57,973 bases of DNA from Gemmataceae bacterium (GTDB taxonomy: Bacteria > Planctomycetota > Planctomycetia > Gemmatales > Gemmataceae): the NCBI GenBank assembly GCA_025055215.1, contig JANWYO010000164.1:1-57973 (forward strand), written 5' to 3'. A program made the position numbers and the translations under genes. Below the pieces are notes generated by a model. That model was not told the origin of the DNA. It was given only the letters and a program-made list of their open reading frames with translations, and ran no database searches. Below are positions 1 through 52,756 of this stretch, in pieces. Position 1 is the first letter of the stretch, and each line of letters begins with the position of its first letter.

Positions 1-3000
1 ACGATGGCCTGGAAAGGTGTGTTGGCCGGGAAGTTGTTCGTGTTCGTCAGGCGGAGCGTCCCGGCGAAGACCAGGATGTCGTTGGGGTTCGGAGCGACGT
101 CGCCCACCCAGTTGACCGGGTTGGTCCAGAAGTCGTTGGTACCGCCGCCGTCCCAGGTGCGCCGCGGCGCATTGGCGATCAGGACGACATCGTTGCCGTC
201 GCCTCCGTTGTACTGCACCGTGAAGGTGAAGGTCGGCGAGCCGAAGGTGAAGTTGCTCGGATCGGGGACGTTGGCGAACGTGCCGACGACCGGGTCGGTG
301 CCATCGTTGTCGATCAGGGTGAAGGTCTGGCCGAAGGAGGTGGTGAACGCCAGGGTACCGATAAGGAGGGCACCGGTGAGGTCCACGCTGCCGGTGACGC
401 GGAGCTGGTCGTACTGCGTGCCCAGCGTGGTGCCCGAGAGTCGGACCTGGAAGCTGGAGCCACTGGCGAAGGTGACGCTGCCGGTGTCGAGGATGCCCAG
501 GCCGTTGACTCCCGGATAGATGGTACCGCCGGACTGCGCGAACACCGGCCCGGCAATGGTGCCGGTGCCGGCCAGGACGGCGCCGCTGCCGACGGTGACG
601 GTGTTGCCCGGGCCGAGCAAACCGAGGACGCTCAAGGTGCCGGCGGCAACCGTGGTGGTCCCGGTCCAGCTATGGGTGCCTGTGAGGGTGAACGTGCTGG
701 TGCCGACCTTGACCAGGTGGCCGCTGCCGGTGATGGGGCCGCTGTAACTGGTCGAGCCAAGTCCACCCGTGGTGAGCGTGCCGCCGGCCAATGAGGTGAC
801 ACCGCCACCGGTCAAGGCACCGATGGTTTCGCTGTGACCGCCCACGTCGAAGGTCGCTCCGCCCGCCACCGACACCAACGTGCTGTCCGCCAACACGCCC
901 GAGGCCCCGAGCTGGAGGGTGCCGCCGCTGATGGTGGTGGTGCCGGTGTAGGTGTTGGCCCCGGTGAGGGTGAAAACGCCGCTGCCGGCTTTCGTCAGGC
1001 TCCCCGAACCACTGATGACGCCGCCGAAGATCGTTGAGCCGTTGTTGCCGCCCGTGGTCAGGGTACGGTTACCCAGGAGGACGTTGCCGTTGCCCGACAG
1101 CGAGCCGATGGTTTCGTTGGCGTGGGTTGTGTCGAGGGTGGCGCCGGCCGCGACATCGACGTTGCTGCCGTTGGGGATGGCGTTGCCGTTCTGCACGATG
1201 AGGGTGCCGACAGCGATGCTCACGGGTCCGGCAAAGGTGTTGGTGCCGGCCAGCGTCCAGTTGCCACTGGCGGTCTTGCTCAGCGATCCGGGACCGCTGA
1301 TCGAGCCGGTGATGGTGCCGACGCCGGCGCCGGTGAGGTTGAGGGCGCCGGCCACCGACACGTTGCCGGCGATGGTGAGCGTCGACCCGCTGTGGCTGAC
1401 CAGGCTGGTGCCCACCGTGTCGGTCAGCGTCACCGGCATGTTGAGGACATTGACCCCGGCGTGGCTGACGATGGCGCTGACGTTATCCAACAGCAGCACC
1501 GGGTTGCCATTCAGGGTGAAGCCACCGTTCAGGAAGATGATGGCCTGGAAGAAGTTCCCTGGCAGGATGGTCAGGTCGTTGACGTTGTTTTGCCGCAGGG
1601 TACCGGCAAAGACGATGACGTCGCCAGCCCCGGGGACACCGCTGGTCCAGTTGTCCGGATCGCTCCAGTTATTGGTCGTCAGGGAACCACCGTCCCAGGT
1701 ACGAGTAATGGTCAAGGCGGTGATGACCACGTCGTTGCCGTCGCCGCCAAAGTAGTCGATGGTGAAGGTGCGGCCGGCCATGGTGAACGTGGCGTTGTTG
1801 GGCAGGCCGGCGAACGTGCCGTTCACGGGATCGGAGCCGTCGTTGTTGATGAGAGTGAGCGTCAGGGCCCCCAACGGCAGCGCGCCGGTGCCAACCAGGT
1901 TGGCGTTGTTGAGGGTGATGGTGCCGATGACGTTGAGCTGGTCGTAGGTGGTTCCGGGGTGGGTGCCGAGAAGTTCCACGCGGAAGTTCGAGCCTGGGGA
2001 GAGCAAGACGTTGGCGGTGGTGAGCGTGCCAGGGCCGGTGTTGCCGGGGTTGATGCTGCCGCCGCTGTGCACGGTGGTCGGACCCAGCACCGGGCCGGTG
2101 CCGCCGAGCGTGCCGCCGTTGTGGACGGTGACGGCGCTGGAAGCGCCCAGCTGGCTGTTGACCTCCAACGTCCCATCGAAGATGTGTACCGGGCCGGTGA
2201 AGGCATTGGAGCCGGCCAGCGAGAAAATCCCCGAGCCGACCTTGGCGACGCCGTTGCTGCCGCCTTGCAGGATGCCGCCCAGGGTGAGCCGGCCGGCCTC
2301 CGAGCCGAGGGTCATCGTCCCTGGGAGGGCGGTAATGGTGCCGACGTAGCTGTTGGTGCCGCTGACGTTATGCAACACCCCGATGCCGTTGAGGCCGGCG
2401 CCCTGGATGGTGAGCGGCTCATTGACGACACTGACGTTGTTCTCAAATTGGAGCGAGGCGCCGCTGCTGACGAAGGTGCCAGCGGAGGTTGAGCCGAGCG
2501 CCATGTTGTGGGCGACGCTGATGGCCCCGTTGGCGATGGTCACGGTGCCGGTGTAGCTGTTGGTGCCTCCGAGGGCGATGACCCCAGCCCCCAGCTTCAG
2601 GATGTCCGAGGCGCCGGTGATGGTGCCGTTGAGGTAAAGCTTGCCGTCGGCTGCCCCAAGCCCCGTGCTGAAGCCATGAAGTTGAATGGGTCCGGCGAAG
2701 GTATTGAGGTTGTCGGCGTTCACCAAGGCCCCACCGCCGACGCCTCGGCCGAAGAGGTTCACGTGCTCCGCACCGATGTCGACGCCGCCGGCGATGGCCA
2801 GGGCGCCCCCGGGCAGCACCACCGTGCCCGAGGCCGCGCTGCCGTCGATGCCGAGGGCGAACGGGCTTTCGGCTCGAACCACTCCGCTGTTGACCGCAAG
2901 GGCCCCGACGTACGAGTTAAACCCTGCCAAGACCAGCGTTCCGGGACCGACTTTGCTCACGTCGGTGATGCCGTCGAGCGAGCCGGAGACGGTCAGGGTG

Positions 3001-6000
3001 CCGGCGGTGACGTTGATGGTCGTCGCCGCCGCCATGCTGATCTGCCCGTTCCAGGTGTTGCTGCCGCTGATGTTTTCCAGCGCTCCGGAGGCCGTGAAGT
3101 TGCTGAACTGGCCCCAGCCGGAAATTTGGAGCATGTTTTGGACGGTGATGCCGCCTTGCAGCTGGAGGCTGGCACCGGGTACGACGGTGGTGATGTTGCT
3201 CGGGTCACCCAGGGCGTTGCTCTTGGCCAGCTTCAGCGAGCCGCCAATCACCCAGGTGCCGTTGCCGGATAAGTAGGTATTGGCAGCGGTGCCACCCATG
3301 ACCATTGTTCCGGCACCGGCCTTGGTGATACCGGCACTGGCGCTCAGGATGACGGCGTTGACGACCAGGTCATCCACCGGTCCGCCATTGTTCACGGTGA
3401 AGAAACGGTCGAGGGCGCCGAGCATCAGCCGGCCGCTGATGACGGGGCTGGGTGAGAAGACCGTGGTGTTCGGCGACGGGTTCACCGTGACCTCGCCGCC
3501 CAAGGTGATCGTGCCGGTACCCGTCCGGACGACGGCGCTGCTGATGGTGCCGATCCCCAGCCCGAGGCCGCCGATGACGTCGGAAGCGCTGTACGTCTCG
3601 AGGTCGAAGAGGCCGGAGCTGTTGACCGTCACCAGCAGGACATCGGCGATCTGATTCGGCGCCCGGAGTATTACCTGGTCGGCCATGCTGCCGCCGAGGC
3701 CGTCGCCGATCACCAGCTGGGTGGTGTGGCTGCCGCCGATGGCGTTGGCACCCGGGGCCTTCGACAGCAACAGGACGCCGGCTTGGACCGTAGTCGTGCC
3801 AGTGAAAGTGTTGGGCGTGGAGCCGGTCAGCAGGAGCGTCCCGCCACCCAAGCCTCCGGGCGACGCCGGCGCCAGCATGGTAAAACTGCCGGCGCCAGAG
3901 ATTTGCCCGGAGATGATCAAATCGATCGGCGCCGGGCTGTCCACGATGGCAAACGACCGGACCGCGCCCAGCAGGAGGTCGCCGGAGATCACCGCCGGCG
4001 GGGAACCGGCATGGGCCGTGGTCGTCATGTCCAGCGTGACGCTGTTGTTGAGCGTCAGGATGCCGCCGTTGCCATTGTTGGTGACCAGGGAGCTGCTGCT
4101 TTGTCCGATGCGCAGGCTGAGGACGTTGATCGTGTCGTTGTACACATCGTAGTCCAAAACCCCCGTGCTATTGACGGTGACAATGGCGGCATCGGCAATC
4201 TGGTTATTGCGGAAGAACTCCACTTCCGCAGGCAGGAGCAGGGTGTCGTCACCAATGATCAGGTTGCCCGGGATCGCGTTGGCAACGTCTTTGGTCAGTG
4301 CAAGAGTACCAGCGAGCACGGTGGTGGTGCCCACATAGGTGTTGGCTGAGATTCCTTGGAAGTTCAAGATGCCCGAGCCGACCTTGGTAAGGTTGCCCGT
4401 GCCGGTGATGGCGGCATTGATGTTGATCATGCCGGGATTGGGCATGTCGGCGCCGATGGTGACATTGCCCACCAGCGTGACGGTGCCGCTGAGGGTGTGG
4501 TTGCCGGTGAGTCCCCGGATGGCGCCGGTGCCGTTGATCCCCGCGCCGCTGACGGTCACCGGCTCGGGCAGGTTGAGATTTCCCTGAATTTGAAGGGCGG
4601 CCCCCGTCAGGATGACCGTGGGGGCCGTGCTCGTGCCCAAGGAGTTTGCCTGGGTCGCGGTCAGGGTGCCGCGACCGATGGTGATGGTGCCGGTCAGGTT
4701 CGTGTTGGCCCCAGCCAGCGTCAGATTGCCAAGCTCCTGTTTGAGCAGGTAGCCGCTGGTGACCATGGAACTGACCGTAAGATTGCCCCCCTCCTCAACC
4801 GAGACAAACGACTCCGACGTGCCGGAAGCGGGGAGGTTGAGGTTCTGGACCGAGAGTGTGTTGCTGCCGGCGCTGTTGAGGAGCGCTCCGCTGGCGATCG
4901 TCAGGGTTTGTCCAAAGCCGGCGATGTTCACGCCGGTGCCAGCCAGGAGCAGGCCGTTGATCGTCTGCGTCGAGGCGGTGGCACTGGCGCTCAGGCGGAC
5001 ATTGTGGGTCGGCCCGGCGCCGGTCAGCGTGGTGATGTACGACGAGTCGGACGGCCCCAAGGCACGGATGCCGTGGGTGCCATCGAGGGTGGCGAACTCG
5101 AGGCCGGTGCTGCCGACCACCGAGGCGAAGGGGAAGATCTGGTTGTTAAGGAGGGCAGCTGGCGAATTGATGAAGCGGATGCGGTTGCCCGGCCCAAGGC
5201 CGAGGTCACCGCCTTGGCCGATGAAGGCCACGCCCGCCTGCGCGTTGCGGACCAGGCCGCGAAGGACCAAGTCGGCGTTGGCCCCTGTGCCCTTCCGCGA
5301 CAGTATCCGGGCTGCGTTGCTGAGGGTGACAGTGCCCACCGTTTCCGACGAATTGACACTGTCGTTGCCCAGGAAATTCAACGAGCCACCGTTGAGGAGG
5401 ATCGGCGCGGTGTCGGGGAGGCGGTTGCCGTTGAAGGCCGCTGTGTTGTCGAGCGTCAGCTGGGCAGCCTGGCCAACGGTGATGGACGAAGGATTGTCCA
5501 AGCGTCCGTTGGCACCGGCCAGGCCGAGGCTGCCGGCGGTCACGGTCCAGGAACTGGTGCCGAAGGCGACGTCGGTCAGGACGAGGGCGCCTGGCCCATC
5601 CTTGGTGACGGGTGGATTGCTGGTGGTGTTGATGGTGCCGCCCAGGGTGAGGGTGCCGCTCTCGACGGCCAGGGCGATGGTAGCGGTGCCGAGAAGGTTG
5701 ATCGGTCCCGCGAAGGTATTGGCGCCGCCGATATTGCGGATGGCACCGGTGCCGCTGATGCCACTGCCATTCACCAAGAGGGTTTCCGAGAGCGAGTAGT
5801 TGATGTTGCCGTCGAACTGCAAGGCGGCACCGGCAGCGATGAAAACGCCGTTGCCGGGCGCTCCGAAGGCGCTCGGGTTTCGAGCGGTGACCACTCCCTG
5901 GTTCAAGGTGAGGGTGCCGCTGAAGTTGCTGGTGCCGGTGCCGGCCAAGACCATGTTGCCGGTACCCCACTTGATAATGCCGCCCGACCCGCTGATCGGG

Positions 6001-48559: not shown

Positions 48560-49030
48560 GTCTGTGAAAGATCGAAGGCTGCCCGCGTAAGGATGCCTGT
48601 GGAAGATTTCAGGCCGCCGACAGATCCAGAAACTTTGTCATCGATTAGAGGCTTCCGCCGTTGTGACGCCTGGGGGGACTTCCGAGCCGCGATGAGCCTG
48701 AGAAGTTGGCATCGATCAGGAACCCTCAGCGTTGTGGGGCTTTGGGAACTGGCGCGACACGAATCGGTGCGGAAAGTTCGTCATCGATCGAGAACTTCCC
48801 GCGTAATGAGGTTCGGGAAACTTCCCAGGCTACGACCAAGCCACAGAGTTTGTCAGCGCTTGGGAACCGCCAGCGTTATCAGTCTCGGGCCGGCTTGCGA
48901 ACCAAGGCGAGTCTCGGAAGTTTGTCATCGATCGGGAACCGTCAGCGTTTCGACAACTGGGGGCAACGGACGAGACCCCCAACGGTCTGAAAAAAGTTGT
49001 CAGGGGACGGAGGTTGCCAGCGTAATGACC
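48560..49030. repeat. Degenerate 72-bp tandem repeat, six full copies and one partial
   Basis: Units start at 48560, 48633, 48705, 48776, 48848, 48920 and 48996; spacings are 73, 72, 71, 72, 72 and 76 bp. The best-conserved part begins GTTTGTCATCGATCGGGAAC and runs to CAGCGTTATGA; the rest is more variable but still related (GGG..ACTTC.GAG...C.A). Divergence is spread over the whole unit, unlike CRISPR, where repeats are near-identical and spacers unrelated. Confidence 0.85.
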
Positions 49031-49138
49031 CGTGTGTGGACGAACCTATTCGGAGCAAAGTGGGACTTCGTTGAGGTGAGACCGATGACCACGTGCAACG
49101 CCTTGCGGACGAACGTTTCCTCGGAACGGAAGGTGACC

Positions 49139-50269
49139 ATGAAGCGCATCCGTCTTGTCACGCTCGTCGCGTCGATTGCCATTGTTTGGGGACTTCAGAC
49201 GGCAACCGCCCTGGCCGAGACCCCAATGCCCGAACCGGGCGCGCCCTTGGAGGAGATCACCGATCCGTCGCTTTTGCCCGATTCGCGCCGCGACGAGTGG
49301 CTCCGGGCCACGCCCGAGGAGCGGGCACTCATTGCTCAGGAAATCGGCGAAGAGGGAGCGCGCCGGTTCGCACAAGCGAAAAACTGGCGGCCGATCTTCG
49401 ACGGCAAAGGGTGCAGCTATCCCCACGGGCTCGACCAGGTTTACGAGGCGGCCGATGGCACGATCCATGTCATTGAGGCGAAGGGAGGCGCAGGACGGCT
49501 GGGCCACGGTTACGGACATCCGCAGGGTAGCCCTGAATGGGCCGTGGAGGCGGCAAAACGAACTCTGGAAAGCAGCAAGGCCTGCCCCAAACAAAAACAG
49601 GCTGCTCGCGCCGTGTTGGAAGCCGCTGCCAAGGGCAAAATGGAAGTCCACGTGGTGCAGACAACCCACACCTTGGGCAAGCCGACGGCCATTCTGCGGC
49701 AGCGTACAAGCAAAGTCACGCGAGCAGCTCGCAAGATGGCCCGAGCTTTTCTTGATGCGCTCGCCAAGTCGGCAGCCAACTCGGCGGATGATGTCGCACG
49801 AGGAGTAGCGAAATCGGCGGTCAGTCAGACAAACGGCGCCACGGGGAACCTGCTCAAGAACGCGGCCAAGTTTGGCGCCGTGGCAGGGGCGGCGGCAGAA
49901 CTGGGGATGCGCGGTTACGAGGTCTACGAGACGGAGCGGCGCTACGCCGCTGGGGAAATCTCACAGCAGGAACGAGAAGTGTCCCACGCCAAGAACGCTG
50001 CTGGGGTCGCGGGAGGCTTGGCGGGCGCCTGGGCGGGCTTTGAAGTCGGTGCCATGGGGGGCGGCGCACTCGGTTCCTGCGTGGCACCCGGTCCCGGGAC
50101 AGTGATCGGCGGCGTGGTGGGCGGTGCCGTAGGTGGGGTGGCGGGGTACTTCGGCGGAGAGGCAGCCGCCCAGGCCGCTGCGGAGTGGACCGTCAACAAA
50201 ATCCATGCCACGGGGGAGACCATCGGCGGGGCCATCAGCCGGGCCTGGTCCTGGTTAACCGACTGGTAA
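49139..50269 (+). CDS. Secreted PD-(D/E)XK nuclease-like protein with glycine zipper
   Basis: 376 residues. A Sec leader (MKRIRLVTLVASIAIVWGLQTATALA-E) is followed by a nuclease-like core: FDGKGCSYPHGLDQVYEAADGTIHVIEAKGG has Asp99, Glu113 and Lys115 in the D-Xn-ExK order of restriction-endonuclease folds, then GHGYGHPQGSPEWAVEAAKRTL and MEVHVVQTTHTLGKP. The pattern resembles polymorphic-toxin nuclease domains. After a helical linker comes a Gly-rich stretch, AGVAGGLAGAWAGFEVGAMGGGALG...VIGGVVGGAVGGVAGYFGGE (289-341), of the glycine-zipper type that can span or perforate membranes. GGAAGGTGACC precedes the ATG; the frame open upstream to 48593 lies in the repeat. No immunity gene is obvious. 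Nuclease activity is inferred, not shown. Confidence 0.7.
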   Translation: MKRIRLVTLVASIAIVWGLQTATALAETPMPEPGAPLEEITDPSLLPDSRRDEWLRATPEERALIAQEIGEEGARRFAQAKNWRPIFDGKGCSYPHGLDQVYEAADGTIHVIEAKGGAGRLGHGYGHPQGSPEWAVEAAKRTLESSKACPKQKQAARAVLEAAAKGKMEVHVVQTTHTLGKPTAILRQRTSKVTRAARKMARAFLDALAKSAANSADDVARGVAKSAVSQTNGATGNLLKNAAKFGAVAGAAAELGMRGYEVYETERRYAAGEISQQEREVSHAKNAAGVAGGLAGAWAGFEVGAMGGGALGSCVAPGPGTVIGGVVGGAVGGVAGYFGGEAAAQAAAEWTVNKIHATGETIGGAISRAWSWLTDW

Positions 50270-50438: not shown

Positions 50439-51911
50439 ATGACTCAACATCCAACCGCCATGGTGGTCTTGGCCAGTGAACAACTTTGGCCAAACATCCA
50501 CGGCCTGGTTCATTGGTCGAGTCATCTCCAACATTTGTGCATTTATCACACCACCGATGAGCGCTCCTACAAACCCGCTCAGCAGCTGGCCCTGCTCTGC
50601 CGGGCGATGTATGGCTCCCGGGTACAGGTGCATGTGCCGCCCGTGCCTGGGGGAATGCAACCGCTCGAAGTACACACCCAGATCCAGTGCTGGCGGCACC
50701 AACTGCCAGGTCAGCGCTGGCTCTTGAACGCGACCGGCGGGACCAAGCTGATGACCGCCGGGGTGCTGCGCTGCGTCGGCGAGCCAGATTGCCAGGTCGT
50801 CTACCGGGAGATCGCGGATCGTTGGTACGAACTGCACCGCGCCGACAATGGGCGCGACATTGTCACAAGCCCCATCGACGTGCCGGTGACGGCCACAGAC
50901 CGGATCCCGGTAAGCAGCCTGCTCTGCGCCCTGTGGAATGGCGCCGATCACCGCGTTGAATTCGGATCAAAACCTAATCGGCTGCCTGTCTTGGAGCTGA
51001 CACAGGCCTGGATCAAGCATCAGGGCAACTGGAGCATGGCGTTTTCCGATTGCGGGCTTCCCAACAATGAAGGCGTGGGTTTCCTTTTCGAGCGTTTCAT
51101 AGCTGCCGTCCTGCTCGAATTGGGCGTCAGCAACCTCGTGTGCAACGTGAAGCGCCTTGACAGCACGGGAACTCAAGTGCTCCAGGAAATCGACCTGGTG
51201 GCCAATTACAGTGGCCGGATTCGGATCGTGGATTGCAAACTGACGGACGGCCAAACAGGGAAAGCTAAAGTTCGTGGGGAGCCGATCACGTCCCAGATTC
51301 GCCAGGCAGCCCAAACCCGGCGTGAACTAGGTGCCGAACTACTCTTGCTGCGACCGAACTCGACCCTTAACGAGGCGGAGCGCAGCTTGGCACAGGCCTA
51401 CGGCCTTCAGGTTCTGGACCGTGACGACTGCAACAGCCTGTTCAGCGGCTTGCATCGTTTTCTGCGGGTTCAGGGTCCGCTGCCCGAAACTTTGCGGCAA
51501 GCGCAAGAGGCCCTGATTCAGGCAACGAAGGTTCCTGGGGCCAATCCGATGCAACCGCCGGCCGAGCAGAACAAAAAGCTTCGTAACGTCAGTGGGCAAT
51601 GGGCCGTCATCGATTTGGACGCGTACCGGCGAGACCTTAACCAAGACTGGGTAGCTTACCGGCTTAGTGACCTGGAAGTGGGCTTCAAGTGCGCCCGGCT
51701 GTCAGACATCTCCCGAGACCAGTGGCGCTGGTTGATCCAGGAGCAATTCCGATCATTTGGCCAAGTCAAGGACATAGCCCTAAGAAAGACTGGGTCGACC
51801 GGTCGGTTTATCCTCACGGTCCCAAACCATGCGAAGTTCTCCGCCCTGATTACTTACCTTGAGGCACGGTTACAAAAATCGCTATTGATCGTACAGCCTG
51901 TAACAAAATGA
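50439..51911 (+). CDS. Card1/Can2-like CARF-domain nuclease, orphan
   Basis: 490 residues. The N-terminal CARF domain has VVLASEQLWPNIHGL (9-23) and WLLNATGGTKLMTAGVL (94-110), matching the LVSEQ.IPN and NITGGTK.M motifs of Card1 that bind cyclic oligoadenylate. The C-terminal nuclease domain has GFLFERFIAAVLLELG (Glu218) and QEIDLVANYSGRIRIVDCKLTDG (Asp252, Asp265, Lys267), a PD-(D/E)XK site with DCK in place of the more common ECK. A C-terminal extension of ~110 residues (from ~380; AVIDLDAYRRDLNQDW...) is not part of Card1 as I recall it. In type III CRISPR immunity such proteins cut DNA and RNA when activated. No cas gene or CRISPR array lies within this window, so its signal source must be elsewhere or different. 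Confidence 0.85.
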   Translation: MTQHPTAMVVLASEQLWPNIHGLVHWSSHLQHLCIYHTTDERSYKPAQQLALLCRAMYGSRVQVHVPPVPGGMQPLEVHTQIQCWRHQLPGQRWLLNATGGTKLMTAGVLRCVGEPDCQVVYREIADRWYELHRADNGRDIVTSPIDVPVTATDRIPVSSLLCALWNGADHRVEFGSKPNRLPVLELTQAWIKHQGNWSMAFSDCGLPNNEGVGFLFERFIAAVLLELGVSNLVCNVKRLDSTGTQVLQEIDLVANYSGRIRIVDCKLTDGQTGKAKVRGEPITSQIRQAAQTRRELGAELLLLRPNSTLNEAERSLAQAYGLQVLDRDDCNSLFSGLHRFLRVQGPLPETLRQAQEALIQATKVPGANPMQPPAEQNKKLRNVSGQWAVIDLDAYRRDLNQDWVAYRLSDLEVGFKCARLSDISRDQWRWLIQEQFRSFGQVKDIALRKTGSTGRFILTVPNHAKFSALITYLEARLQKSLLIVQPVTK

Positions 51912-51926
51912 CTCTGTTCCAAGACT

Positions 51927-52756
51927 TTATCCCACAATATCTGCGGCCCGGAATGTCACCCAGGCAAAGGCAAAATGAAGGAAGGCCAGATAGTCCTCCT
52001 TTCTCTTCTCCCGGCGGATTAGCAGCCGGCTAAAAACGCTCGACCCGGAGTGCATCCGCTCCACCATGTAGTGCCGACTACGAGAGCCGGGGATGGTTGA
52101 CCCGTCTTTGCTTCCTTGACCGCCGGTCATGATATGGACTTTGTAGCCTGGGTCGCGGATCAGTTCCCAGGTGTCGAGATGATCGCAACCCTGTCCGCGC
52201 AAAAATGCTGCTTCTTGCAAGGCGTTGGTTCTGGTCGCTCCACGGGAATGCTCTGCAAAGCCTCCTCGACCAAGCGCTGGTCATGCGTGTTGGCACCGTT
52301 GACGGCGATCGCCAGCAGGACACCGGTGCCATCGGTAAGCAATGACCGCTTGGTTCCGCACTCGGCTCGATTGGTGGGATTGGGGACGGTCGTTCCCTCC
52401 GCCGAGCGGGGCTTTCGTCATGGTCCCGTCGGTAATCTGCCATTCCCACTCGATGCCCTTCAGTTCGTCTTCTTTGAGGGCTGCCTGCCAGGATCGGGCA
52501 AAGATTCCCACCCCATCCGATTGCTGGACGTAGCGATGCAGGTGCTTCCAGACCCGAACTCACGCGGGGACGATTTCCACTGGCAACCAATGCCCAACGC
52601 GTAGAAGATGCCATCGAGCACCGTTCGCCCAGACAGGGGCTTGCGTCCCGGATTCTTCTGCCGTTGGCGGACCGGCAACATCGGCTTGAGGCGTTGCCAA
52701 AGCCGACCGGGGATGCGCCACTGGTCGTCGATACGGGGACATTCCCTTGTCACCAT
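51927..52756 (-). pseudogene. Decayed IS5-type transposase (three frame changes)
   Basis: Pieces of one DDE transposase appear in order but in alternating frames: MVTRECPRIDDQWRIPGRLW...REFGSGSTC (52756 to ~52500), WQAALKEDELKGIEWEWQITDGTMTKAPLGG (to ~52400), SLLTDGTGVLLAIAVNGANTHDQRLVEEAL (to ~52190), and RGQGCDHLDTWEL...HYMVERMHSGSSVFSRLLIRREKRKEDYLAFLHFAFAWVTFRAA (to 51927). At least three frame shifts separate them; one lies near 52397, where one extra base breaks the frame. The final WVVER-type motif is altered to HYMVER. Clear terminal inverted repeats were not found. This is a dead IS remnant, 15 bp after the CARF nuclease gene. Confidence 0.88.

Follow-up and report, generated by a model that had tools for sequence, protein, structure and literature searches.

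The window that we analysed, 57,973 bp in length, is one entire contig (C330) of a 347-contig draft planctomycete genome. At positions 50439–51911 of the plus strand it carries an intact open reading frame, starting with ATG and encoding a protein of 490 amino acids, which the reading frame itself, PADLOC, Foldseek and VIA-align comparisons and profile matches identify as a CARF plus PD-(D/E)XK nuclease, that is, a type III ancillary effector of the Can2/Card1 type. The PADLOC model CARF4--CARF_PDDEXK (PDLC01880) matched the protein with E = 3e-17. The Pfam model CARF_Card1 matched it with E = 3.9e-5, 0.5 bit below its cut-off; in a six-frame scan of the genome, the same model exceeded the cut-off at this gene.

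Upstream of the nuclease, positions 48593–50269 (plus strand) encode a secreted-looking, toxin-like protein with a Gly/Ala-rich C-terminus, which had no PADLOC or Pfam match. A partial relative of this gene (L016:1-543; 47% over 103 aa, Gly/Ala-rich) was found in another planctomycete genome, G052, where it precedes the III-B locus. As the similarity consists of a short Gly/Ala-rich stretch, the idea that the toxin-like gene and the effector have a common origin was kept only as a lead. Directly downstream of the nuclease, at 51927–52756 on the minus strand, there is a remnant of an IS4/IS5-family transposase with broken frames (DUF4096, E = 1.5e-15 at 52460–52756), as the first-pass annotation of this DNA had noted. 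The remnant is consistent with a rearrangement, albeit no proof of one.

A structural model of the nuclease, obtained with AlphaFold2 from nine related sequences (mean pLDDT 85), showed both the CARF and the PD-(D/E)XK fold. Its best matches in the PDB were Card1, Can2, VC1899 and Cdn1 (Foldseek, E ~1e-13 to 1e-15; E = 2e-15 for Card1 6xl1), and VIA-align superposed the model on these four proteins with Z scores of 20–23 over ~280–310 residues. With sequence as the only input, a profile built from the nine relatives also retrieved Can2 and Card1 from the PDB (E ~1e-6 to 1e-7). The CARF domain comprises approximately residues 1–150 (50439–50888, plus strand; Pfam CARF_Card1 at 8–128). The PD-(D/E)XK domain comprises approximately residues 184–345 (50988–51473, plus strand), as delimited by the structural model, the VIA-align coverage up to residue 345 and a match of PDLC01968 at 214–321. 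The product of this gene is a genuine CARF nuclease of the Can2/Card1 group, belonging to a subfamily from planctomycetes that carries an extra domain, and the Card1/Can2 identity originally proposed from the sequence is thereby confirmed.

Three motifs can be recognized in the nuclease: VVLASEQLWPN, NATGGTKLM (containing K103) and QEIDLVANYSGRIRIVDCK (containing E250, D252, D265 and K267). For counting invariant positions we used an alignment, termed A3, of the nine relatives of the nuclease. Within the NATGGTK motif, the ligand-binding motif of the CARF domain (50727–50747, plus strand; located from the sequence and the A3 alignment), residues N97, T99, G100, G101 and K103 are invariant in A3. 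Upon alignment to Can2 (7bdv), K103 corresponds to Lys99 and Y122 to Tyr118, and the active-site stretch E250-x-D252 ... D265-x-K267 (51186–51239, plus strand; located from this and the A3 alignment) provides the equivalents of Can2 E276, D278, E291 and K293. S13 and T38, assigned by their position in the fold, correspond to Can2 Ser19 and Thr42. All eight of these residues (S13, T38, K103, Y122, E250, D252, D265 and K267) are invariant in the nine relatives.

In Can2, residues Ser19, Thr42, Lys99 and Tyr118 are the conserved contacts for cyclic tetra-adenylate (cA4) that Can1 and Can2 have in common; the E276A/D278A double mutant is inactive (PMC7969007). Since none of the Can2-type contact residues varies among the nine relatives, the nuclease is likely to bind cA4. 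The opposite situation is found in VC1899 from Vibrio cholerae (1xmx, DUF1887), which has the same overall fold (Z 21.8) but lacks the cA4-contact residues that the planctomycete nuclease keeps, and which is not activated by cA4 (PMC7969007).

The other known proteins of this group are comparable to the planctomycete nuclease to different extents. The Can2 enzymes from Sulfobacillus thermosulfidooxidans (7bdv) and Thermoanaerobacter brockii (8q3z) share with it the CARF plus PD-(D/E)XK architecture of a type III ancillary effector, the Ser/Thr/Lys/Tyr cA4 contacts and the E-x-D...(D/E)-x-K active site. However, identity over the aligned structure is just ~12–17%, the planctomycete protein has an extra C-terminal domain of ~90 residues, and no cas operon was found beside its gene in this genome. 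Card1 (6wxw/6xl1) shows the same two-domain fold (Z 21.8; profile match to 6wxw with E = 8.5e-7), but its deposited sequence, 382 residues long, is devoid of a matching C-terminal domain. The top VIA-align match was Cdn1 (9u49, cA4-bound), also a CARF nuclease (Z 22.8 over 312 residues), in which the C-terminal domain of the planctomycete nuclease is again unmatched. Published work presents Cdn1 as a ribonuclease that binds cAn ligands broadly (PMC12825302).

The C-terminal extension follows a low-confidence linker (residues 370–390, pLDDT under 50; 51546–51608, plus strand) and spans approximately residues 393–485 (51615–51893, plus strand). When modelled alone, it folded as a helix followed by a beta-beta-alpha-beta-beta-alpha arrangement (pLDDT 89.8, pTM 0.80). 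The VIA alignments with the solved Card1 and Can2 structures stop at about residue 345 of the nuclease model, and the domain, unmatched in those structures, is common to the planctomycete subfamily, whose full-length members all measure 480–525 aa. The earlier suggestion that the C-terminal region lies beyond the family core is thus borne out, the region being a separately folding unit found throughout the subfamily. A profile of the domain, run against 59 genomes, found it only as part of this nuclease; it also recovered the copy of genome G007, which had been left out of the profile (E = 4.8e-5), and did not match the decayed copy of genome G026 described below.

Searches of Pfam and the PDB with the C-terminal domain gave no significant match. 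The best fold matches were weak and ferredoxin-like or RRM-like (Foldseek E = 0.026, VIA Z 7.2). For RRM in particular we obtained a profile E of 0.45 and a Foldseek E of 0.03, with VIA Z scores of 5–7 to mixed ferredoxin-like folds, none of which is significant; as the profile and Foldseek matches fell below significance, we do not use the RRM label. From the model, the extension is predicted to be a small ferredoxin/RRM-like alpha-beta domain, and we would guess that it serves to hold a nucleic-acid substrate or a partner protein, or to bring either into position. A bolder proposal, which we consider rather unlikely, is that this substrate- or partner-binding module would confer on the planctomycete subfamily a targeted action (e.g., RNA-directed, or docked to Cmr or to the ribosome) instead of indiscriminate cleavage, and that the effector would serve more than one type III locus in trans.

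Searches for cas10, RAMP genes and cas1 gave no match on contig C330, and a periodic-repeat scan of the contig found no CRISPR array, in agreement with what had been said of the 58-kb window. Since the window is a whole contig, however, the absence of cas genes in it says nothing about the genome. The genome carries two Cas10s with an intact GGDD cyclase motif, both on contigs other than C330. One belongs to a type III-B locus, with Cas10, Cmr3, Cmr4 and Cmr6 on contig C290 and Cmr1 on contig C50; Cmr5 was found by tblastn (58% identity). The ends of C290 and C50 overlap exactly over 141 bp, which links cmr1 with cas10-cmr3-cmr4-cmr5-cmr6, meaning that the two contigs hold one complete type III-B cmr operon.

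The III-B Cas10 starts directly at the Cmr2 N-terminal domain, with no HD nuclease domain ahead. Because a Cas10 of this kind needs cyclic oligoadenylate signalling for anything beyond Cmr4-type target-RNA cleavage, the III-B system would rely on such signalling. No effector gene was found beside the locus, either in the ~4.3 kb upstream of cmr1, where the adjacent position is occupied by an unrelated efflux-type gene, or downstream of cmr6, where only 0.65 kb is visible. We found no contig end overlap that would place a Cmr contig next to C330; if the cmr6 end of C290 met the right end of C330, the nuclease would be at least 6.7 kb away from the Cmr operon.

The second Cas10, on contig C136, is type III-D-like. 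Ahead of it lie genes for a sigma factor and a CalpL-type CARF/SAVED-Lon protease (PDLC01981, E = 8.5e-100), with two genes between them; one of these two matches the gene at the CalpT position in another planctomycete. Contig C82 encodes RAMP proteins along with a Csx1-like CARF protein, and cas1, cas2 and cas6 lie on contig C203. The search of this genome for cas10 and CRISPR arrays was therefore successful for the former (two GGDD copies) and negative for the latter on contigs C290, C50, C136, C82 and C203. CRISPR arrays often break assemblies.

As a side observation, the sigma factor, the two genes, the CalpL-type Lon protease and the GGDD Cas10d (L006:5614-11895 on C136, together with L028 on C82) give this planctomycete a Calp-type signalling set. 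Such a set was also seen at L030, beside a nuclease homologue and with no cas10 in view there.

Homologues of the nuclease were found in six of 58 other planctomycete genomes, and a phylum-wide draw yielded no further homologue. In G023, a member of the Gemmatales whose III-B Cas10 is 57% identical over 577 aa to that of the present genome (elsewhere at most 39% over comparable lengths), the nuclease orthologue lies directly upstream of cmr1-cas10-cmr3-cmr4-cmr5-cmr6. In G052, the nuclease comes directly after the Cmr genes. In G038, G048 and G007 it was outside any cas locus, within the stretches read, implying that linkage to cas genes is common but not universal. The presence of the nuclease was also associated with that of cas10, detected in five of the six other genomes with the nuclease versus 13 of the 52 without it (one-sided Fisher P = 0.009, kinship ignored). 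The nuclease copy of G026, the genome where cas10 was not detected, has lost S13, K103, Y122, D252 and K267 (L019:8834-10279, minus strand). Although this is a single case, the loss is as expected if the nuclease loses its purpose without Cas10, and the copy may represent a natural decay control.

An alignment scan of 84,980 species genomes returned 14 nuclease loci, some of them in the same genomes as the planctomycete set. Within the stretches read, ten of these loci were near type III genes, a Calp trio or an array: nine had type III genes or a Calp trio nearby, and in the tenth, L040, the nuclease is immediately followed by a long repeat array. The stretches read at L031, L035, L037 and L038 contained neither type III genes, nor a Calp trio, nor an array. 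Single-sequence scans of genome and viral contig collections gave no match, the alignment scan of viral contigs gave no nuclease locus, and tblastn with the nuclease likewise found nothing among phages and plasmids; these collections thus gave no indication that phages or plasmids carry it.

On these grounds we consider it very probable that the nuclease is a type III CRISPR-Cas ancillary effector of the Can2/Card1 group whose gene lies away from the locus producing its signal. According to this scheme, phage RNA would be recognised by a type III complex guided by crRNA, most likely the Cmr complex of the III-B locus on C50 and C290 and perhaps also that of the III-D-like locus on C136 and C82, and the Cas10 of the complex would then make cA4. 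A dimer of the nuclease would bind cA4 between its two CARF domains, dimerising or closing around the ligand, and the PD-(D/E)XK domains would be switched on, so that DNA and RNA would be nicked or degraded and the infection slowed. The role of cA4 as the ligand, the dimerisation, the nuclease activity and the choice of which Cas10 drives the enzyme are what we infer. The wiring of the nuclease to the III-B locus in particular is a guess, because the III-D-like locus has effectors of its own (CalpL and the Csx1-like CARF protein).

The first-pass annotation had called the nuclease an orphan, and had envisaged that it works either as a standalone nucleotide sensor or with a distant Cas10. The latter option is the one that our data favour, given the two Cas10s on other contigs and the linkage of relatives to type III loci. 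The terms orphan and standalone are not supported, because the genome has two GGDD Cas10s, in addition to a complete Cmr operon and cas1-cas2-cas6, and because ten of the 14 homologous loci, including the nearest relatives, adjoin type III genes or an array. A standalone nucleotide-sensing defence nuclease, as is imaginable for VC1899-like DUF1887 proteins, would respond to a ligand that does not come from a CRISPR Cas10. In favour of this reading, the 58-kb contig of the nuclease has no cas gene, and the relatives in G038, G048, G007 and L038 are also away from cas genes in the stretches read. Nevertheless, we judge this most unlikely: the cA4-contact residues are intact, unlike those of VC1899, two Cas10 cyclases are present in the genome, the closest relatives are located inside Cmr operons, and key residues are missing from the only copy whose genome yielded no cas10.

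It is also very unlikely, in our view, that the gene is a displaced, non-functional remnant of an IS-mediated rearrangement, left behind once the effector of the III-B locus had been lost. The reading frame is full-length, every catalytic and ligand residue is conserved, and the GGDD motif is present in both Cas10s, even though such an origin would agree with the IS4/5 remnant directly downstream of the nuclease and with the comparison to G023, whose orthologue is joined to cmr1, whereas here an unrelated efflux-type gene is found upstream of cmr1.

An effector acting at a distance from its type III locus would have a statistical precedent. According to Hoikkala et al., loci that lack an effector are 2.57 times more likely to reside in a genome with several type III loci, and these authors suggested that some loci of this kind may drive effectors encoded elsewhere (PMC11229360). 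The genome described here fits that pattern and gives a concrete case of their inference, namely a cyclase-positive type III locus, no adjacent effector seen, and a matching cA4-type effector elsewhere, while the sister genome G023 shows the linked, ancestral-looking arrangement. The case also shows how an ordinary type III effector can pass for an orphan when just one contig is read. The nuclease is in fact mostly an ordinary, known effector displaced from its CRISPR locus, the exception being the extra C-terminal domain, whose conservation provides a handle on how Can2-type nucleases may specialise.

Some of the homologous loci showed further features. At L033:4992-5915 and L036:9054-9998, the gene directly upstream of the nuclease encodes a CARF-like protein with a membrane anchor (TPGTK/TPGNK motif; in L033 also a weak match to Csa3_N), which could be a paired membrane effector. 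At L017:8270-12183, the nuclease lies between a sigma-factor-like gene and a gene for an APE2256-family CARF protein (PF09651, E = 1.6e-34); the stretch read there contained no cas10. In a Thermogutta MAG (L036:9920-11496 and 1670-3624), the nuclease and cas10 are each split in two ORFs, due to either a frameshift or an assembly error.
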